A stretch of 38,750 nt of DNA, taken from the NCBI GenBank assembly GCA_946479615.1, contig CAMLGR010000026.1:1-38750 (forward strand). The letters are read 5' to 3'. This document shows, piece after piece, positions 2,980 through 38,750 of the stretch. Position 1 is the stretch's first letter. Each line of letters starts with the position of its first letter. Both the position numbers and the translations under genes were made by a program. The notes below the pieces were generated by a model. The model was not told where the DNA came from and made no database searches. It saw nothing but the letters and a program-made list of their open reading frames with translations. The DNA comes from an uncultured Bacteroidota bacterium. Its GTDB lineage: Bacteria > Bacteroidota > Bacteroidia > Chitinophagales > Chitinophagaceae.

Positions 2980-3432
2980 TCATGTAAATACTGCCTGTTC
3001 TGTTGTCTCTTTGTTTTCTGCTATAGATCGTTTCCGGGAAAGCCAAATACCGGTGAGGGCAAGCAGGGTAAAGAATATATTGAAAACCAGGTGCTGTTTC
3101 CAGGTCATTTGTTTCAACACCCCGCCACAACTGCAAGGACGGTCCGGTGTGAAATAGATCATGTAACTCAAATAGCCGGTAAAAACCAACATGATGATCA
3201 GCGAGGCCCACAATCCTGCTCTCCTGCTTCGTGGAAAAAAAAGCAATAACGCAATAGCCAGTTCTGCTATAGGTAATGCCCAGGCAACAAAAAAAGCATA
3301 GCTTCCTATTAATGGTGACCTCGATAATACATAACGAAAATTTGCAAACTCGAATAGTTTGCTGGTGGCTGTATAAACAAATAATAATATGAAAACTGCA
3401 GCGACAATCTCTGCGAGCCGTCTCCTTTTCAT
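2980..3432 (-). CDS. MauE/DoxX-like redox-associated membrane protein (copy 1)
   Basis: A 150-residue protein with four predicted membrane helices at about residues 7-23, 45-66, 74-94 and 115-132. Between helices 3 and 4 it carries PCSCGGVLKQMTWKQHL, with Cys100 and Cys102 forming a C-x-C pair followed by GG. This arrangement is typical of Bacteroidota MauE/DoxX-type proteins; MauE itself is needed for disulfide formation in methylamine dehydrogenase. The gene is followed directly by a secreted cysteine-pair protein, and a close paralog (16496-16945) sits among three such proteins, so a role in oxidising or isomerising their cysteines is a reasonable inference, not shown. Helix positions are by eye. 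Confidence 0.85.
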   Translation of the reverse strand: MKRRRLAEIVAAVFILLFVYTATSKLFEFANFRYVLSRSPLIGSYAFFVAWALPIAELAIALLLFFPRSRRAGLWASLIIMLVFTGYLSYMIYFTPDRPCSCGGVLKQMTWKQHLVFNIFFTLLALTGIWLSRKRSIAENKETTEQAVFT

Positions 3433-3732: not shown

Positions 3733-4062
3733 ATGCAACAATTACCAGTATATAATAACGATAAAATAATATCCGATGGATTTATTATCGTGGATCTTAT
3801 TACAAAATATATCTTCGGTTCACTTGCCCCGGAAGAACATGATCAGCTTGATATATGGGTAGCAACCAGCGATGAAAATATGCGTCTTTTCGAGAACCTG
3901 ACCGATGGAAAGAAAACACAACTTGCTTTATCTGTCCTGCATGAAGCGGGCGAAGAAGGGCTCAAGGCCCTTAAAAAAATAAAAAAGAAATTACAGTTCA
4001 CCGCCTCCCGCCATAGCTCCAGCTTTCTTAACCGTATGCTGCAATTTACCCTGGCCGCCTGA
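3733..4062 (+). CDS. Stand-alone FecR-type anti-sigma N-terminal domain without membrane helix (copy 1)
   Basis: A 109-residue protein that aligns by eye with the first 85 or so residues of the complete FecR protein at 25020-26252: both have an I-x-x-L-I-x-x-Y-I stretch, then P-x-E-H-x-x-L-D-x-W, then SD-x-NMRLFE-x-LTD and a basic L-K-K-x-KK segment. In FecR this N-terminal domain binds the ECF sigma factor in the cytoplasm and is followed by a membrane helix. Here the protein ends about where the helix would begin (tail LQFTLAA), so it should be a soluble cytosolic protein. An ECF sigma gene follows 281 bp downstream on the same strand, its likely partner. It could be a functional soluble anti-sigma or a remnant; recurrence at 15253 and 29293 favours function. 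Confidence 0.72.
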   Translation: MQQLPVYNNDKIISDGFIIVDLITKYIFGSLAPEEHDQLDIWVATSDENMRLFENLTDGKKTQLALSVLHEAGEEGLKALKKIKKKLQFTASRHSSSFLNRMLQFTLAA

Positions 4063-4343: not shown

Positions 4344-4937
4344 TTGCATTCTTCAGGGAATGAAATACAACAGTATACTGATGCATTTCGCCGCGGCGAA
4401 GAAAAGGGCTTTACCTATTTCTTCAGGCAGCTTTATCCTGCTCTCCTGTATTTTTCCTTCCGTATTGTAAAGGACAGGACTATCGCCGAGGATATAGTAG
4501 AAGAATCATTTATTAAAATATGGGAGCGGCACTCCCAGTTCAGCCATCCCAAGGTGATCAGCGCCTGGCTATATACGACTGTACGAAATGGATCACTGAA
4601 CCGCCTGGAGAAGGAAAAGAGAGAACAGGAACATAAGGGGAAATTAGCGGAACAGCCATTGCCACAAGAAGAATCTACCCTGAATGCCATTATTCGCTCG
4701 GAAGTAATACGGGAAGTGCATGCTTCGATAGAAACATTGCCCCGCGCCTGCCGGACCATTTTTCAAATGATGTATATCAGGGGCATGACGGTAAGGGAAA
4801 TTGCTGAAGAGCTGAAACTTTCTACCAGTACGGTGAAGAACCAGAAAGCAAGAGGGCTCTCCATTCTCAGAAAAAGATTTCCGCATATTTCAGTTGCCAT
4901 TTTTATTATGCTGCTCAACGAATTTGCCCGGTGCTAA
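4344..4937 (+). CDS. ECF RNA polymerase sigma-70 factor (copy 1)
   Basis: A 197-residue sigma factor of the Bacteroidota Sus-linked ECF type. Region 2 is seen as DAFRRGEEKGFTYFF through AEDIVEESFIKIWER and ISAWLYTTVRNGSLN; region 4 is ETLPRACRTIFQMMYIRGMTVREIAEELKLSTSTVKNQKARG, with a clear helix-turn-helix. The start is a TTG at 4344; it gives an N-terminus (HSSGNEIQQYTDAF) matching in length those of the two other sigma factors in the window, and no in-frame ATG lies nearby. The upstream neighbour is a membrane-free FecR N-domain protein instead of a full FecR, and no SusC follows, so the usual surface-signalling route is missing. Target promoters are unknown. Confidence 0.92.
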   Translation: MHSSGNEIQQYTDAFRRGEEKGFTYFFRQLYPALLYFSFRIVKDRTIAEDIVEESFIKIWERHSQFSHPKVISAWLYTTVRNGSLNRLEKEKREQEHKGKLAEQPLPQEESTLNAIIRSEVIREVHASIETLPRACRTIFQMMYIRGMTVREIAEELKLSTSTVKNQKARGLSILRKRFPHISVAIFIMLLNEFARC

Positions 4938-4983
4938 AAACAGGCTTTTAAGGACCGCAGTAACCCGTCATTCTCCATTCTTT

Positions 4984-6186
4984 TTATATTTCTTTACCGC
5001 TTACTGATCCTTTAACAGGCATGTGATTCCTTCCATCCAATCGTAAAAAATACAGCATAAGCATCAGCAATAATGTTCCTGCTCCTGCCACTTTAGGAAT
5101 ATTAACTGGACCTGTCCTGAATATTTCTTCAATCGTCTTAATAAGTACAAAAGAGATAATCGAACCTATAAATAGCACTTTCGTCATATTCATTCCCTTG
5201 GTTGAATCATCATGCCGGATATTTTTCAGGTTACCTTCGATGAAATAGATGCGGGCATTGGTCCGGTAATAATTATAAAACCCAAAAACGATAAATATAG
5301 GTAGTAAATAAAGGAAAATATGTTCAGATCTTTTCAAGATCATGGCTTCGTTTTCATTAGCATGCACCTCATCCTTTTTTAAGGCACTCTCTTGTCGGAT
5401 AACAGGAGGTGTATTTACGACTATCTTACCTGTATCCGCCATACTCATCGTCAGTTCAGTCCCTGGCTTTGCCAGGGGGTTAAATTCTTTAACAATATTC
5501 CATCCACCCGCTGCTACGGTTACAACAAGCATTGCATAAAAGACAAAAAGGATAATCCTATCAACCGACCTTATAACATTAGCATCTATTTGTTTTATCA
5601 CTACATGTATAGCATAACTTAACCCAAATTTCTTTCGCTTTTCATTCAGAGACAGCTCTTCTCCTTGATTATCTGCAGCTTCCGGACGCTGTTCTTCTTT
5701 TACAGGATTAACAACTTTATAAGCAATGTTCAGGATAGAATGTATCCTTTCAATCAAATCTTTGTGGAAATGAGTACCTTCTTCCGGTTTGCAGATGAAT
5801 TTTTCATTCTCTCTCAATTCAATCCCAGGTAAACCATTATTGTTACTGACAAACAGTATTGGTGCAGTGACGCCTTTCTTCCGAAGAAAATTTCTGAATA
5901 CCAATCCTATCCCATCAGTGCCGCCATCTTTCAGATTCACATCAATAATAAACAGGTCGGCATCGATATATGTTTTTACGATTTCTTCAAATTCGGTAGC
6001 CCTCATACGATCTATGACAGAATGATAATTGTAAAAATCAAACCTGTATTTTTCACTATCATCAATGAAAGAAGGATATATGCTCACTTTATTTCCATAT
6101 TCAACCTCTATTGCATTCTTAATGCCTGAAAATTGCTTTTCGGCATCTTCAAGAACCAGGATCTTTTTTGGCCTTTGTTCGCTCAT
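4984..6186 (-). CDS. Receiver-domain protein fused to four membrane helices
   Basis: A 400-residue protein. Residues 5-155 form a response-regulator receiver domain with the full set of expected residues: acidic Glu13-Asp14 after strand 1, phospho-acceptor Asp82 in FIIDVNL, Ser114 after strand 4 and Lys133 in FICKPEEG. The insert between strands 1 and 3 is longer than usual. Instead of a DNA-binding or enzymatic output, the C-terminal half has about four membrane helices near 209-227, 288-306, 333-352 and 364-385, with a soluble loop between the first two. The ATG overlaps the stop of the 1427-residue upstream gene (ATGA), so the two are translationally coupled and probably work together. I infer that phosphorylation controls the membrane part; whether that part is a channel, transducer or anchor cannot be seen. 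Confidence 0.82.
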   Translation of the reverse strand: MSEQRPKKILVLEDAEKQFSGIKNAIEVEYGNKVSIYPSFIDDSEKYRFDFYNYHSVIDRMRATEFEEIVKTYIDADLFIIDVNLKDGGTDGIGLVFRNFLRKKGVTAPILFVSNNNGLPGIELRENEKFICKPEEGTHFHKDLIERIHSILNIAYKVVNPVKEEQRPEAADNQGEELSLNEKRKKFGLSYAIHVVIKQIDANVIRSVDRIILFVFYAMLVVTVAAGGWNIVKEFNPLAKPGTELTMSMADTGKIVVNTPPVIRQESALKKDEVHANENEAMILKRSEHIFLYLLPIFIVFGFYNYYRTNARIYFIEGNLKNIRHDDSTKGMNMTKVLFIGSIISFVLIKTIEEIFRTGPVNIPKVAGAGTLLLMLMLYFLRLDGRNHMPVKGSVSGKEI

Positions 6187-9100
6187 AGTTCGCTTTTTGG
6201 TTTAGGAGTAAGATCAATCGTTATGTGAAAAATTGAATTCTTATCAGTCGAATGAATCAGTCTTTCCATGTTTAGCCTGTCCAATGTATCATTACACATC
6301 TGAATACCTCCATACTGCTTCTGAATTGATTTGTTCTCATATTCATTTTCAGTCTTGTTGCTAATCGTTATATGACTTTCAGTCAACTCAATTGCCAAAT
6401 GTTTTTCGCCCAGCCGGGGACTATATTTTTTCATATTGATGATCAGCTCGGGCAAAATCACGTTGTAAATAGCCGGGTAAATCATTATGACTGACCCTGA
6501 TGAATCAATTCCCTTCAATTTTACCTGTGGAAAAGAAATGGCCCTGCCTCCTAAAAACGGATCTTCCATGATATTCATGATCAGCATAAAGAGATCCCGG
6601 TTTAGAAAAGGTCTTTTTTCCAGGTCATATATCGTTTCTTTTGCCCTGATCTGCCCCTTAATGGCCCTGTTGACTATAGAATGAAGCGCCAGGTTTTTTT
6701 GAACGTTATTTTGTTTTCCCAACTCTTCTGCATAATCCTGCTGTGCCCTCAGATAGTCGACCACACCATGCCTGAGCTTTTTTTGAGACACTTTAAATTC
6801 TCTTGCTTCCAGCACTTCAATGAAAGCATCGCTTTCAAATTGCTTTTGGAGATATTCAAAGACCTGTTGCTTGATAAGCAATAATAATCTCACCTTTTCT
6901 ACATTAATGAGGTCGAGAAAATCTCCTGAACTATGGATCGTTCCCGGACAACCTATTGCCAGGACCGCTTGTCCATTGCCTTTATATTGATGCTGGGCCC
7001 CCGGCTGCAGGATGGTAAAGCGGAAGAATAGTAATGCGCCCGATTCCCTGATCATGTTAACCCCTATTTCTTCCTTTTGATAATCTTTGCGAATCGCTGA
7101 AATCATAATGGGCGCCGTCTCTTTATCATCCCCATTTATAATTGCCGGGAAATATTCTTCACTCAACCCAATAAACTCTTCGTCTTTCTTTGCTATGGCA
7201 ATAAATGATTGCAGGTTCCCTTCTTTACAATCCAATAAACCATATAACATATTGTAGATAAATCCATCCTTACGAAGTTTTACCTCGCGTCCCTCCATTT
7301 CCGCTTCTGACTCTTCTGATAAAATAGTAAATACATTATCCGCGATCACCGACTTGTTTTCCTCGCGTTCCTTGTACTCGATAAAAAAAGCATATTGCAG
7401 GCCAGGGCCAATGATATCACAAGTGGCATTGAGAATCCTTCTCAACTGCTCATTGAATCGTTGTTCCACTGAATCTACTTCTCCCTGTTTATCTTTCGTC
7501 GAAGATTGCAGTAAGGAAATAGTGTAAAGCATGGAAACAATGGAATTTTCTATTTCCTGGAAAACGTCCGGAGAATAAAATTTCTTTGCCTGGTTAAGAA
7601 ATTCAAGAAAATGGCGAATCTCCAATGAATCCGAATCGGGGTTTCGCAGGTATTTCTTTAAGATGAACTCTTTAAATTCCGCCTTCCGGTGTTCCTCAGG
7701 TACGTTTTTCCTGTTATTATCCAATACCGTCTTTATTTTATCAAGCAGTTCGTTAAAGCTGATGGATTCTTCAAAAAGGATGCGTTTAATTTTGGCGAGA
7801 TAGAGGTTTTCAAAATAATCGATGGCGCCCAATTTGTTTTTGATTTCTTCAATTTCAGTACAGCTAATATCCGCCCGGAAAATATCCCTGATCCTATCAA
7901 GCAAGGATTTTTCCTTATCGAGGTTGCGGATATATAATCTTTTCAGGTGGTTTAAAAGGAAATTATTCTCTGATTTTAATACGCGCCAAAAGACGAAATA
8001 GGGATCGGTTAAGATCCTTCTTAAAGAAACCGGGTATTCCAGGTTACCTGTCATTTCAGGCAATACATTGGCCTGATTCAGCAGGCCCTCCAGCCGGATG
8101 GAACGAACAGGATTGTTAAAAAGAAGCTCCTTGTAACAATTAAGAAAAAAATATTTAAGCGTCTTTATTTGCCTTAGCTGGTATTGGCAATTCAATAACT
8201 GTCTTTGATAAAATTTATCTTCATTTTCTACCAGAGGTATATTGAGTTGACGCTTATAAAGCCTTATCAGATCTCTTTCGGTAAGCAGTTCGCGCCTGAG
8301 ATGGCCAATAAATTTATCCGAGATAATAAAATTGGAATTCAGCTCAATAGACCTGCGCAAAAAGAATTTCAGTTTCCGAAGATCGGAAAAGGAGAATCGT
8401 ATCCTTTTCTTCTTTATTGCCTTTTTATATGCCTGATGGCTGACTTCGATCAATTCCTGATTTACGTAATAGAAAATCGTCTCATAAATATTGTGATAAA
8501 ACTTGAAGGGAGAATTGCTTAGTATACCAACGACCAGGTAGCGAACAATATCAGCTTCGATTTCCGGCTTTCGACCACTTTCATTTTCTTCTTTCGCATT
8601 AAAATAACATTTCAGTTTATCTTCATTTGTAAGATCACTGATCAATTGCAACAGGTCACTATTGGTAAAAGATTTTCCGTTTTCAAAGCTGGTAAACCAG
8701 GTACTGATATCATGAAATACTTCCAGGCCAATCAGGTCACGCTCCTGGTAAGTATATCTCTTTTCATAGTATTCAAATGTGGAACGATCTCCGCAAAATG
8801 GAGAGTACGCCAGCTCGCGATACTTATATTCTCTTTCGAATACAATCAGCTCGCGGGGTAATCTTTGATGAATTTCATTACCTACATACATTTTCATCGC
8901 ATCCAGGCTGCATTCGTCGAAGATCGAGTTCAAAGCACTAAGTCTTTTCTCAAGCGGGTTGCCGGAATGGGTCGGATCCACCAGCGGTACGTTTAACTTG
9001 GAAAAAGCTATGAAACAACCCTTTGCATGCGGATTTTTCTCTGTAGCCAGTTTCCGGTTCAATTCATGTTTAGTTAACTCCGTGGTGCGATCGATTATTG

Positions 9101-10466
9101 TCAATATCGCATCCACACCTTTCTCCATGTAATCTCCATTTTCTTCATGACACGCATCTTTGACACAATCACTGACGCGTTTAAAAGTATTTACACCGGC
9201 AATGATATCATCAAAATAATAGATCTTATCAGCGGCGCAAATCAGTTCCTTATTGGTCTCGATAAAATTATCGATATACTCTTCCGACATCCTGTATGGA
9301 ATAATCGACGTATTGAATTTCCCGAAAAACTCTGATTCCAGCAGGTCCTCGAGACAAGTAGAAGAACGGAAATGGCCAGGCGTTATAAACACGATATTGC
9401 TACCTTCTTTTTCCGATCCGAGAAGCGTGGTCAATTCTTTAACAAAAAAGGAAAGGATCGCCGGTTGGTTATGCTGGTAAAATACATCGCGCTGGATATA
9501 ACTCATAAAGCTTCTCTGGTCTACTGTAATGTAGCCGGTCAATTGCAGGCAAGGTTCATGATCCTTATTATAATAAAGTTGCCTGAACGGCGGATCCTTA
9601 TAATGTCTTTGCCGGTCACCAAACTGGGGAAGGCTAAGGATAATATTAGGAGCATCATGATTTGAGTGCGTCAGGAAAAGAGGCATTTCCGGTTTGGGAT
9701 CACCAGTACCCAACCGGTCAGGAAAACAGAGCGGGCATTTTTCCGCCAGGTATAAATATGTTGCTTTACTAACAAGATAGTGGCCTTGCTGATTTGAGAT
9801 CTCAGGATTCAACCTGCTATTGAACAGTACTTTTTCACGATCTATGCTACGCCATAAATAAGAAGAATATAATTCCGCTACCTCTGTATCCGAAAAAGTA
9901 TCAAGGTTGATGGTCCCTTCTCCCAGGGTTTCCAGTTGCAGGTTGGCGTGAGCGACGAGGTAGACAGTAAAACAACAGGGATTGATCTTTATTCCTTCTA
10001 TTCCTTCTGTAATAAAATATTGTTCAAGGTATTTACGTACGTTGAAGTTTACGCTAAAACTACAGGTAAGCGGCAGAATAATGATTATATTCTTTTTTAA
10101 TTCAGGATGAAAAAGAAAAGAATACTGTTCATTCACATGATCGACAAGTGCATAGTTAATTGAGTAATTCTCCTTCTGAAGCGTTCTGCAGGTTTCATTC
10201 AGGAAAAGGCTGGCATAATTACCATATCCCAGCAGTGTTGTATTATTAAGGTCCGGTATAGTGGTTTTAAGCCTTTTGATCAGCCTTTTACTGATCTCAC
10301 GGGAGTTGTTGAGATTTTGAAAAGTGCTTTTAATATATTGGTAGGAACTGATATGCAAGCGGGAGCCCAACTCATAATGCGAATCGGGCATTCGCGTGTT
10401 CGCCCGCTCCAGCATTTGCAAAAGCACAAGGTTGTCTTCGTCCCCGGGGAGATTTGATGATGACAT
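6183..10466 (-). CDS. Giant signalling protein: two phosphoribosyltransferase-like regions, helical linker, GAF-like region, histidine-kinase-like C-terminus
   Basis: A 1427-residue soluble protein. Residues 60-250 look like a first PRTase-like fold: a NNTTLLGYGNYAS turn, then the hydrophobic strand NIIIILPLTCSFSVN at the PRPP-loop position, followed by Cys244-x-x-Cys247. Residues 355-500 look like a second: IVFITPGHF, then IYYFDDIIAGVNTFKRV, which matches the type I PRTase PRPP motif (two hydrophobics, Asp419-Asp420, a glycine loop, Thr), then GCFIAFSKLNVPLVD. Residues 550-990 are charged and helical. Residues 1000-1200 resemble a GAF domain. The end (about 1200-1427) resembles a kinase: LRHGVVDYL with His1233, an N-box-like ELIINMKKYS (Asn1344) and a YGGIQMCNDTLDRL glycine turn. 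The usual DxGxG box is not recognisable. Coupled by a 4-bp overlap to the receiver-membrane protein. Confidence 0.75.
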   Translation of the reverse strand: MSSSNLPGDEDNLVLLQMLERANTRMPDSHYELGSRLHISSYQYIKSTFQNLNNSREISKRLIKRLKTTIPDLNNTTLLGYGNYASLFLNETCRTLQKENYSINYALVDHVNEQYSFLFHPELKKNIIIILPLTCSFSVNFNVRKYLEQYFITEGIEGIKINPCCFTVYLVAHANLQLETLGEGTINLDTFSDTEVAELYSSYLWRSIDREKVLFNSRLNPEISNQQGHYLVSKATYLYLAEKCPLCFPDRLGTGDPKPEMPLFLTHSNHDAPNIILSLPQFGDRQRHYKDPPFRQLYYNKDHEPCLQLTGYITVDQRSFMSYIQRDVFYQHNQPAILSFFVKELTTLLGSEKEGSNIVFITPGHFRSSTCLEDLLESEFFGKFNTSIIPYRMSEEYIDNFIETNKELICAADKIYYFDDIIAGVNTFKRVSDCVKDACHEENGDYMEKGVDAILTIIDRTTELTKHELNRKLATEKNPHAKGCFIAFSKLNVPLVDPTHSGNPLEKRLSALNSIFDECSLDAMKMYVGNEIHQRLPRELIVFEREYKYRELAYSPFCGDRSTFEYYEKRYTYQERDLIGLEVFHDISTWFTSFENGKSFTNSDLLQLISDLTNEDKLKCYFNAKEENESGRKPEIEADIVRYLVVGILSNSPFKFYHNIYETIFYYVNQELIEVSHQAYKKAIKKKRIRFSFSDLRKLKFFLRRSIELNSNFIISDKFIGHLRRELLTERDLIRLYKRQLNIPLVENEDKFYQRQLLNCQYQLRQIKTLKYFFLNCYKELLFNNPVRSIRLEGLLNQANVLPEMTGNLEYPVSLRRILTDPYFVFWRVLKSENNFLLNHLKRLYIRNLDKEKSLLDRIRDIFRADISCTEIEEIKNKLGAIDYFENLYLAKIKRILFEESISFNELLDKIKTVLDNNRKNVPEEHRKAEFKEFILKKYLRNPDSDSLEIRHFLEFLNQAKKFYSPDVFQEIENSIVSMLYTISLLQSSTKDKQGEVDSVEQRFNEQLRRILNATCDIIGPGLQYAFFIEYKEREENKSVIADNVFTILSEESEAEMEGREVKLRKDGFIYNMLYGLLDCKEGNLQSFIAIAKKDEEFIGLSEEYFPAIINGDDKETAPIMISAIRKDYQKEEIGVNMIRESGALLFFRFTILQPGAQHQYKGNGQAVLAIGCPGTIHSSGDFLDLINVEKVRLLLLIKQQVFEYLQKQFESDAFIEVLEAREFKVSQKKLRHGVVDYLRAQQDYAEELGKQNNVQKNLALHSIVNRAIKGQIRAKETIYDLEKRPFLNRDLFMLIMNIMEDPFLGGRAISFPQVKLKGIDSSGSVIMIYPAIYNVILPELIINMKKYSPRLGEKHLAIELTESHITISNKTENEYENKSIQKQYGGIQMCNDTLDRLNMERLIHSTDKNSIFHITIDLTPKPKSEL

Positions 10467-10862
10467 GGCAAATAAATGTTAGCCGGCTCAGCCGGTATTT
10501 GATGGCATCAAGGAACATGGAAGATAGAGTTGAAATGAAATGCTGCATGCGTAAATCCTGTTAACTCAATACAGATCCGCTTATTGATAATCAGCCAGCA
10601 GTTTACAGCACACTGCTATCTAAGATACAGAAAACATATAAAAGGACTAAACCTGAAAAAAATAAATAATCCATTTTTTAAATACAAAACGATAGTATTC
10701 AATAAATACCGTTAAAAAACGGTGTTGCGGCAGGTCTAAAAACGGCGTGTAGTACTACCAGGATTTTTTATTTTAGTTTACCTCCAGCCCCTGATAATCC
10801 TGCCTAATCCCCTCTATCAAATACGATCAGGTTATGCAATTCAAATAACAATTATCCCTGTT
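10467..10862. promoter_or_regulatory. Divergent promoter region of the PRTase-kinase locus
   Basis: This 396-bp gap separates the divergent operons starting at 10466 (-) and 10863 (+). Two elements stand out: a 6-bp palindrome ACCGTT-AAAA-AACGGT at 10708-10723, and an 11-bp direct repeat, AAAAACGGTGT at 10715-10725 and AAAAACGGCGT at 10738-10748, with starts 23 bp apart. That spacing is about two helical turns and would suit a dimeric or tandem-binding regulator. No protein is known to bind here, and I see no gene in the gap. Confidence 0.45.
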
Positions 10863-11342
10863 ATGGACACTCCAAAACCAAAAAATCCCTTACGATTGAT
10901 CCTAAGGGCAGCAATCTTTATTTTTATTATTCTATTCCTGGCTTTCCTTGGCCTGAAAACAGCAGCTGTCTACGATCCAGATCCTGGCAGGAAAAACCTG
11001 TTACTGGAGATTGTAACCAAGGTTGAATCCATTGGTCTTCTTTCCTGGGACTTTCTAAAACCATTCCTGCAACTTGTTGGCATTTTACTGATCGTAGAAT
11101 GGATCCTCGGGAAATTCGGTATTTCTTTTACCAACAAGCAGTCGAACCTGGAATGGAATGTGCAAACTGTCATTGCGATTGTCATTATCGGATCTTTCGC
11201 TCTTGCTGCCTTAAGCGGAATAAAAGGGGTGGATTACCTGAAGGACCTTGCTCTTGTGGTGATCGGCTTTTACTTTGGATCTCAAAAGCGTTTTAATGAT
11301 AAAGACAACATAAAAGTTACGGAAGAACCTTTAAAACCATAA
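10863..11342 (+). CDS. Small membrane protein of unknown function
   Basis: A 159-residue protein with about four hydrophobic segments: residues 12-32 (LILRAAIFIFIILFLAFLGL), 60-80, 96-116 and 120-138, ending in a charged tail. I do not recognise a family. The third segment follows an SNLEWNVQT stretch, and the last ends in DLALVVIGFYFGSQKRFND. It is transcribed divergently from the giant PRTase/kinase-like gene and is followed after 36 bp by another membrane protein on the same strand, so the two are probably co-transcribed. Their position suggests they belong to the same signalling locus as the receiver-membrane protein. Start chosen at the only in-frame ATG before the first helix. Confidence 0.7.
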   Translation: MDTPKPKNPLRLILRAAIFIFIILFLAFLGLKTAAVYDPDPGRKNLLLEIVTKVESIGLLSWDFLKPFLQLVGILLIVEWILGKFGISFTNKQSNLEWNVQTVIAIVIIGSFALAALSGIKGVDYLKDLALVVIGFYFGSQKRFNDKDNIKVTEEPLKP

Positions 11343-11378
11343 ATAGCCAACCATCGCTCTTACCTTATACTATTTACC

Positions 11379-12275
11379 ATGGATATCATATTCGGCATTA
11401 CCTCATTACCCTTCGATATACCAGGAATCTTAAAGTTTGGTATTATCGGTCTCGGGGCAATCTTGGCCATCTTAACATTCTGGCTGCTAAGAGGTGAGCA
11501 AAGAAAGCCAGAAGCATCGAGGCGTATGATATCTGCTATTTTCACCTTCATGGTATTCTCGCTTTTTCTTGTTACGCTTGGCCTGCTGAGCAAAACCGGT
11601 ACCCAAAGCTATATCCAAGGGTACACCGTGCCAGCACAGGAAAAACAAATCGTTGAGAATCTTCCTGTCGAAAACCTGGAAAATTATAACCTGCTCAAGG
11701 ATATCAGCATATTTGATCTCAGAGGATGGAAGCCTGTTCCTGCTGATAAACTCAATGAACGATACAGCCCTGCCAATTATATCAATTACCTCCATATAAA
11801 AAAGACAAGACCACTGGATTCGATCGTGATACATTATGCTACCAGTGGTTATGATATTGACCTCAGGTGTATTACTCATAATTATAAAAATTACCAACAG
11901 GATACTACTACCAAAGAACATAAGGGTCAAAAAAGCTATGGGATCGCAATAGATGTTTCGTCAGTCCCACTGAATGAGGAGTTTCTTGTTGTTGTAGAAG
12001 CTACGTATTGGAATGGCTTCCGCGATATTACTAAAGAATCGGCCTCTACTTATACAGATGCAGAAATCACAGGTCTGAATGAATTGGATCTTATCATACT
12101 ACTGCCTTATGATAAACCTGTAAACAGCGTTGCCAAATACAGCCGGACTGACCGTGAGTTTTATCCTTACAGGGGCGAGGAAAAATTCTATGTCGATGAA
12201 AAAAAGAGATTTATATACTGGAGCGTTAAGAAGATTACTGCTGATACGCATTATAAACTGGACTGGACCTGGTGA
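11379..12275 (+). CDS. Membrane-anchored protein with large non-membrane C-terminal domain, unknown function
   Basis: A 298-residue protein with two N-terminal membrane helices (about residues 18-38 and 50-69, separated by a basic RGEQRKPEASRR loop) and a C-terminal domain of about 225 residues. The C-terminal part contains HIKKTRPLDSIVIHYATSG, KSYGIAIDVSSVPLNEEFLVVVEATYWNGF and IYWSVKKITADTHYKLDWTW, which read like a beta-rich domain. With a short basic loop between the helices, the large domain is likely on the same side as the N-terminus. I recognise no family. It forms a probable operon with 10863-11342 and faces the lone LytTR gene convergently. A sensor or effector role in the neighbouring locus is inference from position only. 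Confidence 0.72.
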   Translation: MDIIFGITSLPFDIPGILKFGIIGLGAILAILTFWLLRGEQRKPEASRRMISAIFTFMVFSLFLVTLGLLSKTGTQSYIQGYTVPAQEKQIVENLPVENLENYNLLKDISIFDLRGWKPVPADKLNERYSPANYINYLHIKKTRPLDSIVIHYATSGYDIDLRCITHNYKNYQQDTTTKEHKGQKSYGIAIDVSSVPLNEEFLVVVEATYWNGFRDITKESASTYTDAEITGLNELDLIILLPYDKPVNSVAKYSRTDREFYPYRGEEKFYVDEKKRFIYWSVKKITADTHYKLDWTW

Positions 12276-12368
12276 TATAATAATAAGGCCGAATTGATAA
12301 GAGCAATGCGCCTGCGCTAACATTATAATCATGCCAGCAAGAAAAATCAGGTCATTTACTCCTTTATC

Positions 12369-12734
12369 CTACCTATGTGTCGCAATTACAGTGAACCGTG
12401 CCTGCAATGCCATCCTATAATTCCCTGACAGTGGCACTTCTTTTCCTCCCAGGTTGACCAGGTCTTTACAGATGTACTTAATATGACCCACCCCTACAAT
12501 ATAAGACCGGTGCACCCGGCAAAAATAGTTACCGGGTAATTGCTGCTCCAGTTGCTTCAGGCATATTTTGACACAATAAGTACCTACACCCCTAACTGTA
12601 TATATTTTTACATAGTTGTCTGCTGCTTCCAGGAATATTATATCCCGGTATGGAATTCTTACCCAGCGCCTGTTTACTTTTATTAAAACAGCCGGGAATG
12701 GCTCCGCGGGAATGTAAAGTTCCTTTTTATACAT
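12369..12734 (-). CDS. Stand-alone LytTR-type DNA-binding regulator
   Basis: A 121-residue protein that is almost only a LytTR domain. The core reads VNRRWVRIPYRDIIFLEAADNYVKIYT, then LKQLEQQLPGNYFCRVHRSYIVGVGHIKYI and GGKEVPLSGNYR, the typical order of beta strands and the conserved F/Y-x-R-V/I-H-R-S-Y/F segment. LytTR domains bind DNA direct repeats, usually as the output half of a receiver protein; here no receiver is present. About 25 residues precede the domain. Its activity may be set by expression level or by another protein's partner domain. Possible targets are the flanking genes, but I see no well-matched LytTR site pair. Confidence 0.9.
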   Translation of the reverse strand: MYKKELYIPAEPFPAVLIKVNRRWVRIPYRDIIFLEAADNYVKIYTVRGVGTYCVKICLKQLEQQLPGNYFCRVHRSYIVGVGHIKYICKDLVNLGGKEVPLSGNYRMALQARFTVIATHR

Positions 12735-12846
12735 ACTGATCTATTAATACCGCTAAAATACCTGACCAGTTTCACATTAGGGGGGTGAGAAACCACACGA
12801 AAAATGTCGTTTTTTACCCCTCTTTTTTTGTGAAGACGGACCCTAT

Positions 12847-12875
12847 AAGGGCCGCCGGCTAATCCGGCAGCCCTT
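12847..12875 (-). terminator. GC-rich hairpin downstream of the basic/Ig-like protein gene
   Basis: Arms AAGGGCCGCCGG and CCGGCAGCCCTT form a 12-bp stem with one non-Watson-Crick position and a 5-nt loop. It lies 21 bp past the stop of the minus-strand gene at 12897. There is no good T-run directly after the stem, so it is only a possible terminator or 3' stability element. Confidence 0.4.
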
Positions 12876-12896
12876 GCTATATCCAAACTAGTCACT

Positions 12897-13463
12897 TTAT
12901 GACAGGATAGTTTCCTGCGAAGTGGTATTGCCGGGAAGATCAGTCGCCGTTGTACTGACCGAAGAACCAGCGACCTGTGGATTATTACCCGTTGCAGTAT
13001 AGACCCAGTCCAGTCCGCCGGGCTGCGCCACCGCATTCCCTTCTTCCAGCACTGTTCCGTTACTGCCGGTGATCGTCACTTTTACTGCCGTTACTTTGAA
13101 ATCGTCTATAGCCCGGATGGTAATGGTATCACCAGCCTGCCCGTGGTAATCGCCGGTTGTTACGGATCTAATGATCGGCGCTTTCATAAAATCAGCCATC
13201 GCCAGGTTATAGGCTCTTTTACGGTTGGCTGCTTTTTCCTGGTAGACCGCTTTTTTGACCGGGTCGGCTATTGTGGATTTTGCATAATAGCTTGCTTCGA
13301 GAAAACGTTCACGGTGGGCCTGTTGCCCAGCCGTTGCTTTTCCTTTTCTTTTACCGGGGCGGCGAAAAGCTTCCGTATCATTACCGATCCTGCGGTAAGA
13401 GATCATTTTTCCCAGGCGGCCGCTCAGCCCGCGGGTGATGTCGTTATCGTTTGATTTTGCCAT
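12897..13463 (-). CDS. Basic protein with Ig-like C-terminal domain, unknown function
   Basis: A longer frame reaches 13580, but the ATG at 13463 gives a natural start (MAKSNDNDITRGLSGRLGKM), so the protein is 188 residues. The N-terminal 90 residues are strongly basic, with an RLGKMISYRRIGNDTEAFRRP segment and a K/R-rich GKRKGK patch, then a helical part ending NLAMADFMKAPIIRSV. The C-terminal 90 residues look like a beta-sandwich: GQAGDTITIRAIDDFKVTAVKVTITG, then GNAVAQPGGLDWVYTA and a run ending in ATDLPGN. I have the impression that similar unnamed proteins occur in other Bacteroidota, but I know no assigned function. The basic half could bind nucleic acid or a polyanion; this is inference. 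Confidence 0.75.
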   Translation of the reverse strand: MAKSNDNDITRGLSGRLGKMISYRRIGNDTEAFRRPGKRKGKATAGQQAHRERFLEASYYAKSTIADPVKKAVYQEKAANRKRAYNLAMADFMKAPIIRSVTTGDYHGQAGDTITIRAIDDFKVTAVKVTITGSNGTVLEEGNAVAQPGGLDWVYTATGNNPQVAGSSVSTTATDLPGNTTSQETILS

Positions 13464-15252: not shown

Positions 15253-15570
15253 ATGAACAACACTATCACAATAACCCAGGCAGAAAATGCGTGTCATATA
15301 GCAGGGTTGATAATTGGATATAAGAATATGACACTGAGTATACCACAGCAGATTGAACTCGATGACTGGTTGATCGCCAGTGACGAAAACATGTTCCTGT
15401 TCGAAGAGCTGACCGATGAGAAAAAAATGAGGAAAGCATTTGACTGGTTTAAAGACATCGCTATCTCTCCTGTACTCAGGCATGCGAAGAAACACTTAGC
15501 TTTTTCTTCTGCGAACAGGTTTTTTCAACTCACAGAGCATTCTCTTGCAAAGAAACTATCTCATCAATAA
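15253..15570 (+). CDS. Stand-alone FecR-type anti-sigma N-terminal domain without membrane helix (copy 2)
   Basis: A 105-residue protein matching the sigma-binding N-terminal domain of FecR: IAGLIIGY, IELDDWLIASDENMFLFEELTDEKKMRKAFDW, then a basic RHAKKHLAF segment. The SDENM-LFEELTDEKKM block is nearly identical to that of the full FecR at 25020-26252 (SDINMRLFEELTDEKRM). It stops about 20 residues after the basic segment without any hydrophobic helix. Unlike the other two copies it has no adjacent sigma gene; the next genes downstream, 268 bp away, encode cysteine-pair and MauE-like proteins. Base composition is nearer to the GC-balanced flanks than to the AT-rich genes beside it. Likely a soluble partner of an ECF sigma factor encoded elsewhere, or a remnant. 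Confidence 0.7.
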   Translation: MNNTITITQAENACHIAGLIIGYKNMTLSIPQQIELDDWLIASDENMFLFEELTDEKKMRKAFDWFKDIAISPVLRHAKKHLAFSSANRFFQLTEHSLAKKLSHQ

Positions 15571-16495: not shown

Positions 16496-16945
16496 ATGAA
16501 ACGAAACACAGTTATAGAATTAGTTGCCGCCTTATTCATTTTATTATTTGTATATACTGCTGTAAGCAAATTCATAGACTTCTACTATTTCAAATATGTT
16601 TTATCCACTTCACCTTTAATTGGAGCAGGAAGAGCATCGCTAGTCGCTTGGGCAGTGCCTAGTACTGAAATTTTAATATCATTACTCCTCTTTTTCCCAG
16701 ACACTAAACGTGCAGGATTATGGGCTTCGCTTTTATTGATGCTGCTATTTACAGGCTACCTTATTTATATGATTTATTTTACACCAAATCAGCCGTGTAG
16801 TTGTGGAGGTGTGCTAAAACAAATGAGCTGGAAACAACATCTTTTATTTAATTTATTTTTTTCTTTGCTAGCAGTTATTGCATTATCAAAAAGAAAGAGA
16901 AAGATTGCAGATAATTCCAGTACCATTTTTAGTACAACTGCTTAA
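16496..16945 (+). CDS. MauE/DoxX-like redox-associated membrane protein (copy 2)
   Basis: A 149-residue paralog of 2980-3432, sharing long identical stretches (ILLFVYTA, SPLIGA/S, RAGLWASL, FTGYL-YMIYFTP and PCSCGGVLKQM-WKQHL). Four membrane helices at about 7-23, 46-67, 75-95 and 113-131; the C-x-C pair is Cys101 and Cys103 between helices 3 and 4. The DNA is much more AT-rich than the first copy although the proteins are close, which implies separate histories and not a recent local duplication. Flanked by secreted cysteine-pair proteins on both sides in the same orientation, with 37 bp to the next one. Proposed role: transfer of redox equivalents to exported cysteines, by analogy with MauE. 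Confidence 0.87.
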   Translation: MKRNTVIELVAALFILLFVYTAVSKFIDFYYFKYVLSTSPLIGAGRASLVAWAVPSTEILISLLLFFPDTKRAGLWASLLLMLLFTGYLIYMIYFTPNQPCSCGGVLKQMSWKQHLLFNLFFSLLAVIALSKRKRKIADNSSTIFSTTA

Positions 16946-36248: not shown

Positions 36249-37688
36249 TTATCTCTCAAACCCAATCGTAAACACCGTCCCCTTTCCTATTTCACTTTCT
36301 ACGCGGATAGATGCTTTATGTGATTGAATAATTGAGTAAGAAGCAGCGAGACCCAGTCCGACACCATTTTTCTTTAGAGTAAAGAAGGGTTCAAAAAGTT
36401 TCGGCAGGTATTCTTCCTGAATCCCGCTTCCATTGTCACGAATGATGACGGTATAGGTATCAGGTGTTTCATTGAGCGACACCGACAAACATCCTTTACC
36501 AATCTCCATCGATTCAATCGCGTTGACAAGTATATTGGTAAACGCAATTACCAGCTTGGATTTGTTCGCCGAAATTTCGAGCGGATGCGATGGGTAGGAT
36601 TTTTTTACTTCTGCTTTCTGCAGGTCCAGCCGGTCGCTGATCATGGCAATACTTTCATCAATGATCCCCTGTAAACTGTTCGATTCAAAGACGAGTTCCG
36701 GTGGTCGTGTAAGGTTCAATAATTCAGTAATAATATGATTGATGCGGACACAATTACGTTTGATGATCGCTACCAGGTTTTGCTGGATCTCTTCATCTTC
36801 CAGCGGCATTTCAAAATGATCGGCCGAAAGACTGATATTATTCAACGGGTTCCTGATCTCGTGCGCCAGGATCCGCATCAGCCGTTCATTCGCCGCCAGC
36901 TTCTGTGCCTGCAGATTCGCCACCTCGGCTTTTTTAATATTGCTGATATCGTGAAGAATGCCATGCACCAGCGATCCGCCTTCGGCATTTTCCGTAAAAG
37001 AGATCGAGAGCAGGCAGGATTTCGTTTCCTTATCATCACTGATGATCTCCGTTTCGAAATCATTGATGTTCTGTTTGCGGTCAATGAATTCGCATAGTCT
37101 TTTCTTATGCGTCTCTTCTTTTATAAAATCATAAAAACTGCGATGAAGCGCCGACCTGGTTTTTCCAAACAAGGCCGAAGCAGCCTGGTTCACTTCTGTC
37201 AATAACAAATGCTCATCAGCAATGAACACGGCATCTTTGGAACCTTCAAATAACCGGCGGTATTTATTTTCACGCGTTTTTAATTCTTTTACCGAAGCGG
37301 CTCTTTCCAGCGAATAACGGATACAACGCTCGAGCTTTTCGGTATTCAATTCTGATTTGATCAGGTAATCGGTCGCACCGTATTCCATGGCTTTGATATC
37401 GATGTCCTTGCTTCCTTTGCCGGTCAGCAATACAATGGGATCATCGAAAGCGGCAGAACGGGTAGCCTGTAAGAGATCGAGCCCGGTGCGGGCGCCCAGG
37501 CGATAGTCCACGAAATAAATATCGTATTCGCGGGCCTGAATTTTTTTAATGGCCGTTTCATACTGGTTACACCAATCAATAGTGAAACCAGCTCCCCTGT
37601 CAATGGATCTGATGTAATCAGAAATAACGAAGAAGTCATCTTCATCATCATCAATTATAGCGACTTTTATCTCACGGGAACTGAGCAT
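36249..37688 (-). CDS. Receiver-PAS-histidine kinase protein
   Basis: A longer frame reaches 37754, but the ATG at 37688 (MLSSREIKVAIIDDDEDDFF) gives 479 residues and a short 17-bp overlap with the upstream kinase. Residues 6-125: receiver domain with the acidic IIDDDEDD cluster, Asp61 in FVDYRLG, Thr89 and Lys111. Residues about 142-255: PAS domain (FEGSKDAVFIADEHLLLTEV). Residues 265-479: kinase core with His276 in ILAHEIRNPLNNIS, the N-box near Asn389 (ILVNAIES), DNGSGI at 418-423, the F-box FEPFFTLKK and the glycine box NGVGLGLA. Receiver at the N-terminus makes this a response-type kinase that is probably controlled by phosphotransfer from the overlapping kinase upstream. Output partner not visible. 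Confidence 0.93.
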   Translation of the reverse strand: MLSSREIKVAIIDDDEDDFFVISDYIRSIDRGAGFTIDWCNQYETAIKKIQAREYDIYFVDYRLGARTGLDLLQATRSAAFDDPIVLLTGKGSKDIDIKAMEYGATDYLIKSELNTEKLERCIRYSLERAASVKELKTRENKYRRLFEGSKDAVFIADEHLLLTEVNQAASALFGKTRSALHRSFYDFIKEETHKKRLCEFIDRKQNINDFETEIISDDKETKSCLLSISFTENAEGGSLVHGILHDISNIKKAEVANLQAQKLAANERLMRILAHEIRNPLNNISLSADHFEMPLEDEEIQQNLVAIIKRNCVRINHIITELLNLTRPPELVFESNSLQGIIDESIAMISDRLDLQKAEVKKSYPSHPLEISANKSKLVIAFTNILVNAIESMEIGKGCLSVSLNETPDTYTVIIRDNGSGIQEEYLPKLFEPFFTLKKNGVGLGLAASYSIIQSHKASIRVESEIGKGTVFTIGFER

Positions 37689-38750
37689 GTTGTTCAATGG
37701 TTTGCGGTACAATGAATATAAACCGGGCTCCGGCATTTTCGGCGCTGTATACATATATGATACCCCCGTGATTTATGAGAATCCGCTTAGCTACTGCAAG
37801 GCCGATGCCATTTCCGGGAAAAGACGATTTTGCATGTAAGCGGACAAAAGGACGAAATATTTTCCCCGCCAGTTCAGGGGAAAACCCGATTCCATTATCA
37901 GCGATTTCTACTTTATAGTAAGGCAAAGGTTTCGTCATACCAAGTTCCTTTTTTTCCTGTTCACTGATCTGCTGCGCACTGATGTTCACCTGCGGGGTAT
38001 CTTCTTTAGTATATAACAAGGCATTGTCAAGCAATACACGGAAAAGGCGATGGTACTGTTCAGCATCTCCCTGCACAACAGGCAGATCCTTATAGCTGAT
38101 CTCGGCTTTTTTCTCACGGATGACCGGCTGAAGATCGTTTACTACATCTGCGATTATCTTGTCCAGGTCACAGGAGACGGGCCGGAATTCACCGGTATTG
38201 ACTTTTGACAAAGAAGCCAGGTCATCGATAAGCGAACGCATACCACCGAGGGAAGTATGAATGCGTTGTACAAAGTTCTTTACTTCTTCACTCTCTTCCT
38301 GGTTGTATTTCGAAGTAAGCCGATCTACCAGCACCATTAGTTTACGTAACGGCGCATCGAGGTCATGCGCAGCGATATCGATAAACTCGGTATAGGCTTC
38401 TTTATAAATACCGTTATAGATAATCGCCGGAATTTTATGAATCGTAAAGACAAGTAGTGATTGCCCATTTTTTTCTTCACATAGGGTCAAAGGGTTTAAA
38501 ACAAACACGGAATCTTTTCTATGATTATGATTTAGATCGCCCAAGTTTTTAAATCCTTCATATTCTTCTTTTAAATTTTTTTTGGAATAACGTAACGCCT
38601 CACAAGAATCACTGTTATATTTTTTAAAGTAGTATGCAAGAAGCTTGTTGTGCAGCTGAAAAAGAGAATCTTGATAATAGGAATAATCGTTTGAAAATAC
38701 AGAGTCTTTGGTTGTTGTCAACCTACTGTAATCCGTAGCGGTATCTTTTT
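37672..38750 (-). CDS. Sensor histidine kinase, N-terminal end outside window
   Basis: The frame is open to the window edge (the first visible codons run from 38750), so the N-terminus is missing; a TTG at 38721 is not a trusted start. The visible part has a probable PAS-like sensor (DSVFVLNPLTLCEEKNGQSL, then LLVFTIHKIPAIIYNGIYKE), then HisKA with the phospho-acceptor in FIDIAAHDLDAPLRKL, an N-box LFRVLLDNALLYTK, IADNGIGF, IFRPFVRLH and the glycine box PGNGIGLAVAKRI. Such HDLDAPLRKL kinases are common in Bacteroidota. Its stop lies inside the start of the downstream receiver-PAS-kinase gene, so translation is coupled and the two are likely a phosphorelay pair. Confidence 0.93.
   Translation of the reverse strand, partial: KDTATDYSRLTTTKDSVFSNDYSYYQDSLFQLHNKLLAYYFKKYNSDSCEALRYSKKNLKEEYEGFKNLGDLNHNHRKDSVFVLNPLTLCEEKNGQSLLVFTIHKIPAIIYNGIYKEAYTEFIDIAAHDLDAPLRKLMVLVDRLTSKYNQEESEEVKNFVQRIHTSLGGMRSLIDDLASLSKVNTGEFRPVSCDLDKIIADVVNDLQPVIREKKAEISYKDLPVVQGDAEQYHRLFRVLLDNALLYTKEDTPQVNISAQQISEQEKKELGMTKPLPYYKVEIADNGIGFSPELAGKIFRPFVRLHAKSSFPGNGIGLAVAKRILINHGGIIYVYSAENAGARFIFIVPQTIEQHAQFP

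Follow-up and report, generated by a model that had tools for sequence, protein, structure and literature searches.

The DNA analysed here, 38,750 nucleotides of contig CAMLGR010000026.1 from an uncultured Bacteroidota bacterium of the Chitinophagaceae (hereafter the window), contains four neighbouring genes that an earlier note, made from the letters alone, had put forward as an undescribed signalling system. The open reading frame (ORF) list of the window contains all four at the coordinates that note had given. Two of them, encoding a 1427-residue protein (the giant) and a 400-residue receiver protein, lie on the minus strand and overlap by 4 bp, exactly as had been claimed; a gap of 396 bp separates the giant gene from the other two, which run in the opposite direction and encode proteins of 159 and 298 residues. 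Judging from the clear relatives that both the giant and the 400-residue protein have, the four ORFs are not chance reading frames. The features of the overlapping pair are the following (PRTase, phosphoribosyltransferase; PRPP, phosphoribosyl pyrophosphate):

6183..10466, minus strand: the giant, a PRTase-PRTase-helical-GAF-histidine kinase protein (ORF, relatives, models and fold matches)
9717..10466, minus strand: PRTase domain 1 (residues ~1-250), orotate-PRTase-like fold whose PRPP-loop position lacks the acid pair
9726..9737, minus strand: CxxC (Cys244, Cys247) between the PRTase domains, in 8/8 giants (alignment)
8991..9512, minus strand: PRTase domain 2 (residues ~319-492), HPRT-like, with the PRPP motif at 414-427
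7563..8831, minus strand: helical region (residues ~546-968; DSSP of the model, no profile signal and no assigned fold)
6822..7565, minus strand: GAF-like domain (residues ~968-1215)
6198..6824, minus strand: DHp-CA histidine kinase end (residues ~1215-1423), with candidate phospho-acceptor His1233 and N-box E1340/N1344
4984..6186, minus strand: 400-residue protein with a receiver (~1-160) and a conserved C-terminal membrane domain (~204-381) (alignment, receiver rank test, hydropathy)
5941..5943, minus strand: codon of Asp82, predicted phospho-acceptor, in 7/7 sequences (alignment)

Structure prediction and fold matching recovered a PRTase fold in both N-terminal regions of the giant for which one had been proposed, and the motif IYYFDDIIAGVNTF (residues 414-427) lies within a strand-loop-helix element of the model (strand 414-422, helix 425-438). 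The structure matches include the PurR/PyrR entries 1p4a, 7rmw, 2igb and 1a4x, and solved PurR in complex with cPRPP and with ppGpp; of 656 matches in a viral structure library, one reaches an E-value of 0.001 or better, and it is a viral PRTase. Profiles of the individual regions were also ranked by hhalign score against 263 targets, of which 243 were E. coli ORFs, 18 were named proteins of E. coli and two were kinases of the window; the probabilities in such rankings are low, and the fold matches weigh more. For PRTase 2 the first three ranks were taken by apt, pyrE and gntX (probabilities 22.6, 4.8 and 3.9%), while the two remaining PRTases, prs and upp, came at ranks 23 and 101. This ranking was lost in two column shuffles; with the relatives P0006 and P0007 left out of the profile, apt stayed at rank 1, gntX stood at 11 and pyrE at 16. 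PRTase 1 gave no signal by sequence profile (pyrE at rank 244), hhalign detected no similarity between the two PRTase domains, and the N-terminal alignment had a sole match among PDB profiles, 4paw, named as an orotate PRTase, at an E-value of 2.3. The fold of PRTase 1 is assigned from the structure model.

The PRPP loops of the two domains are unequally preserved among the eight giants aligned. In PRTase 1, Pro132 replaces the acid pair in every one of them. PRTase 2 has two acids in five (the window protein, P0001, P0002, P0006 and P0007) and one in P0003, P0004 and P0005; the loop of the window protein, FDDIIAG, looks complete. PRTase folds are known both from enzymes and from regulators such as PurR and PyrR, where they sense a ligand. 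Because the pair is missing throughout PRTase 1 and is kept in only part of the family in PRTase 2, sensing is favoured over catalysis, and for decayed catalytic loops placed ahead of a kinase it would be the simplest reading. Cys244 and Cys247 are the sole conserved cysteines within residues 1-545; a full zinc site within a single chain would need more conserved ligands than the CxxC region offers.

The GAF-like region and the kinase-like end named in the earlier note were likewise recovered as folds, the latter of DHp-CA type, at weaker Foldseek E-values, of which the best is 8.8e-3 and none reaches 0.001; the helical and GAF regions have no sequence-profile support among the hhalign targets. 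In all six sequences that cover the kinase end, both the N-box residues E1340 and N1344 and His1233 are present. The latter (residue 688 of the model) lies between two predicted helices; in the rows for HK853, His260 (H260A in the row titles) would fall at about model residues 685-691 if the alignment is ungapped, as reckoned from the first aligned residues only. The kinase-end profile ranked evgS first, htpG second, narX fourth (aligned at its residues 75-108, presumably outside its kinase domain), narQ 7th and envZ 15th; the second window kinase came at 39, uhpB at 87, ypdA at 129 and the first window kinase at 146. On these features the giant is predicted to be an active kinase.

The receiver domain of the 400-residue protein is confirmed by profile ranking, in which the top five targets all carry receivers: narL, ompR, a window kinase with receiver, evgS (at 1002-1038, which we take to be its receiver) and evgA; ypdB ranks 10th and uhpA 66th. 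Asp82 and Lys133 are present in 7/7 family members, and two acids at positions 13-14 in 5/7, P0009 and P0011 having Glu-Asn. Of the four membrane helices that had been described after the receiver, three stand, as segments above a simple hydropathy threshold (204-232, 331-356 and 363-381); the fourth, a very conserved hydrophobic stretch at about 288-307, is below that threshold in the window sequence, which makes four helices probable. Given its strong conservation around LLPIFIVFGFYNYY and STRxMNLTK, the membrane domain is probably the output rather than a mere anchor. The membrane region gave no hhalign profile signal, and no DNA-binding domain was recognised in the protein. A TMEM208_SND2 match (E-value 7e-4) occurs in one family member and in none of the other six. 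A likeness to UPF0114/YqhA is no more than a lead: none of the seven members has a Pfam UPF0114 match, yqhA ranks 69th of 263, and with a nine-sequence YqhA profile only the first membrane helix aligns, in register (P = 0.034 versus 0.14 for the reversed profile).

None of the four proteins matches a family in the libraries searched, namely Pfam (at family cut-offs), NCBIfam and PADLOC, which bears out the earlier remark that no named system fits. A protein search yielded six relatives of the giant (E-values 4e-15 to 2e-221), to which an alignment search added P0007 (4e-17), and six relatives of the 400-residue protein (3e-31 to 1e-69). As the protein search requires shared 5-residue words, the true number of relatives is probably larger. 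Three relatives come from named sources: P0003, a giant, from Dyadobacter sp. BHUBP1, and two of the receiver protein, P0012 from Chitinophaga sp. and P0008 from a metagenome-assembled genome labelled Chlamydiales. P0006 (2337 residues) and P0007 (2022 residues) retain the PRTase-CxxC-PRTase core behind a long extra N-terminus (~700-800 residues), and P0006 also matches the kinase end, weakly. The two extra N-termini match each other at E-values of 0.06-0.07 only; an additional GHKL ATPase within them, motif-like by eye, is likewise a lead only, uhpB and ypdA having reached ranks 2 and 3 of 263 behind another protein. By tblastn no relative of the giant was found in 72,556 plasmid and 50,697 phage records, and none of the receiver protein in the plasmids (the phages were not searched with it); P0006, P0007 and P0003 used as queries against the plasmids retrieved no relative of either, nor did pattern scans of genome contigs and viral contigs.

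Taken together, these data describe the kinase-receiver pair as a real and rare two-component variant, unannotated so far, that would couple a tandem PRTase-fold sensor to an output through a membrane receiver. It shares with canonical two-component systems made of a GAF histidine kinase and a receiver the GAF-like, DHp-CA and receiver folds or profiles and the conserved His, Asp and Lys, but differs from them in its tandem N-terminal PRTase folds, in an Asn at the G1 Asp position and in the membrane domain attached to its receiver. With PurR and PyrR it has in common, on general knowledge of their function, a PRTase fold as ligand-binding regulator, whereas the giant fuses two such domains to a kinase. 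The defence system Detocs, as generally understood, likewise pairs a sensor kinase and a receiver that is joined to an effector-like part; at our locus, in contrast, two adjacent phosphorelay genes are recognised and no third, their neighbours being an ECF sigma gene on one side and the divergent membrane pair on the other. The accessible part of one Detocs report describes three genes, ATP degradation and, in the best-described case, a PNP effector (PMC11249213). That effector is not stated there to be obligatory, and Pfam finds no PNP match in the giant or the receiver protein. Ter systems, which act in bacterial stress or conflict, also contain PRTases, as proposed signal makers, but a kinase fusion is absent from the accessible part of that description (PMC7824862).

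Distinctive here is that the PRTase fold occurs twice ahead of a histidine kinase and that the receiver is joined to a membrane domain; if true, this would be a direct phosphorelay from nucleotide state to membrane. No description of a tandem PRTase-kinase with a membrane receiver was found in titles and abstract beginnings of open-licence papers, a scope that takes in few subscription papers and no preprints, so that such a combination may be in print elsewhere. Any claim of novelty is further tempered by legends in PMC13092281, where the abbreviations HATPase and REC occur under predicted defence systems and PRTase under validated ones, some of which may concern the architecture of the giant.

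The best explanation, which we hold to be fairly probable, is that a histidine kinase in the cytosol senses a ligand through its PRTase-fold domains and phosphorylates a membrane-bound receiver. The domain folds, receiver residues, gene overlap and conservation were established by computation; from them we infer the ligand, the phosphotransfer and the membrane output. The giant would be a soluble kinase whose tandem PRTase-fold and GAF-like domains bind a small ligand, most likely PRPP, a nucleotide or a nucleobase, in the way that this fold is used by PurR and PyrR. Ligand binding would alter autophosphorylation at His1233, and the phosphate would pass from there to Asp82 of the co-translated receiver, a transfer suggested by the residues and the gene overlap and made plausible by the invariant His1233 in a DHp-like part. 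Phosphorylation would then change the state of the membrane domain, by transport, leak or docking. A bolder version is doubtful: a nucleotide-pool alarm of an undescribed class, in which the kinase would read the PRPP or nucleotide state through its two PRTase-fold domains and, via the phosphorylated receiver, directly open or alter a membrane effector without transcription, possibly under stress or phage attack.

Two findings bear on the proposed phosphorelay. The G1 box (DxGxG) is not present in its usual form, the position read by eye as its Asp being Asn1370 in 6/6 kinase ends. Against a fixed pairing of giant and receiver stands a comparison of their clusters by the lengths of the longest contigs, none of which was shared among the 13 (giant: 20474, 59744, 45428, 50255, 109761, 22704 and 115531; receiver: 1547, 1980, 6303, 11516, 141759 and 130273), so these data lend no support to a co-occurrence of the relatives. 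In this comparison the multi-contig clusters P0002 and P0011 were represented by the longest contig only, the two shortest receiver contigs are too small for a giant, and the limited sensitivity of the search may conceal partners.

The divergent genes are candidate members of the system only:

10863..11342, plus strand: 159-residue membrane protein (ORF, hydropathy), without match in plasmids
11379..12275, plus strand: 298-residue protein with two N-terminal membrane segments and a C-terminal domain

A relative of the 298-residue protein is encoded on a 28-kb plasmid of Spirosoma taeanense (E-value 3e-27, 33.8% identity over 71%); the product of the gene that follows it does not match the 159-residue protein. 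The C-terminal domain of the 298-residue protein also resembles, weakly (E-value 0.02, 24.3%), the C-terminal part of a 461-residue protein (7215-8600) from a plasmid of Bradyrhizobium sp. 62B. The latter protein has an N-terminal alpha/beta-hydrolase domain, and its gene converges on an adjacent split set (8656-11027) of the cyclic-oligonucleotide-based antiphage signalling (CBASS) type, with a CD-NTase divided over two ORFs (DncV-like NTFase and AGS_C) and a SAVED protein. The domain may thus travel with immunity genes, a lead that is no evidence about the kinase itself.

That the four genes do not form one system is a reading compatible with the proposed phosphorelay, and we find it rather probable that kinase and receiver work independently of the divergent membrane genes, which would be an unrelated neighbour. 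The shared promoter region that had been postulated was not confirmed: promoter-like sites over 4700-13000 number 25, versus 23.0 (standard deviation 4.2) in shuffles, with one weak site in the 396-bp gap, where a script found no exact match to a Bacteroidota-type -33/-7 promoter and one loose match on the minus strand. The Spirosoma plasmid, moreover, contains no giant or receiver relative by tblastn. A common function may still exist but would draw only on the divergent arrangement and the common membrane theme.

A role in anti-phage or nucleotide-stress defence, as also suggested by the earlier note, would be a special case of the phosphorelay: the PRTases would sense a phage-caused change in PRPP or nucleotide pools, and the membrane domain of the phosphorylated receiver would permeabilise the membrane, as in Detocs with a membrane output. 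We regard it as possible though unlikely, and this analysis provided no evidence for it. It accords with a receiver that carries a putative membrane effector and adjoins a large sensor kinase, with few and scattered relatives, and with the recurrence, at an E-value of 0.02 only, of the 298-residue protein's C-terminal domain in the hydrolase fusion near the CBASS-type set. It is opposed by the absence of PADLOC matches for the four proteins and seven related ones (the presence of Detocs models in PADLOC-DB was unchecked), by the lack of giant relatives in plasmid and phage records, of receiver relatives in plasmids and of either in the viral-contig scans, by the absence of any integrase or transposase family above its cut-off among the 36 window ORFs of at least 120 residues, and by the Sus, ECF/FecR, MauE and ordinary regulator families around the locus. 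Less probable still is that the PRTases are enzymes producing a nucleotide-derived signal, a possibility also raised in the earlier note, and that their product would control the kinase through the GAF-like domain. The complete-looking FDDIIAG loop and the Ter-system PRTases, signal makers in the accessible part of PMC7824862, speak for it, but the acid pair is absent in PRTase 1 (8/8) and incomplete in PRTase 2 (3/8), and none of TerB, TerC, TerD and TelA is among the Pfam matches of the same 36 ORFs. Overall, the earlier interpretation is partly supported.

On one side of the four genes lies an ECF sigma gene (4344-4937), on the other a LytTR gene (12369-12734) encoding a 121-residue LytTR DNA-binding protein without a receiver domain. 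Named families elsewhere in the window are of the SusC/SusD, FecR, ECF and MauE types and ordinary regulators; such gene content suggests a member of the Bacteroidota, perhaps of the Chitinophagaceae. Scans of the locus and window found no Rfam family or tRNA and no repeats suggestive of an insertion; three two-copy families of 20-25 nt occur, without an inverted pair. The small proteins encoded at 3733-4062, a short way upstream of an ECF sigma gene, and at 15253-15570 are alike (35% over 88 residues, E-value 2e-11), have no Pfam match and resemble, by eye, the N-terminal part of FecR-type anti-sigma factors. Two MauE-family membrane proteins, encoded on opposite strands at 2980-3432 and 16496-16945, flank the region at a distance of ~13 kb from each other. 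On the minus strand at 36249-38721 lie two overlapping kinase ORFs, one with receiver, PAS, HisKA and HATPase domains and the other with HisKA and HATPase.

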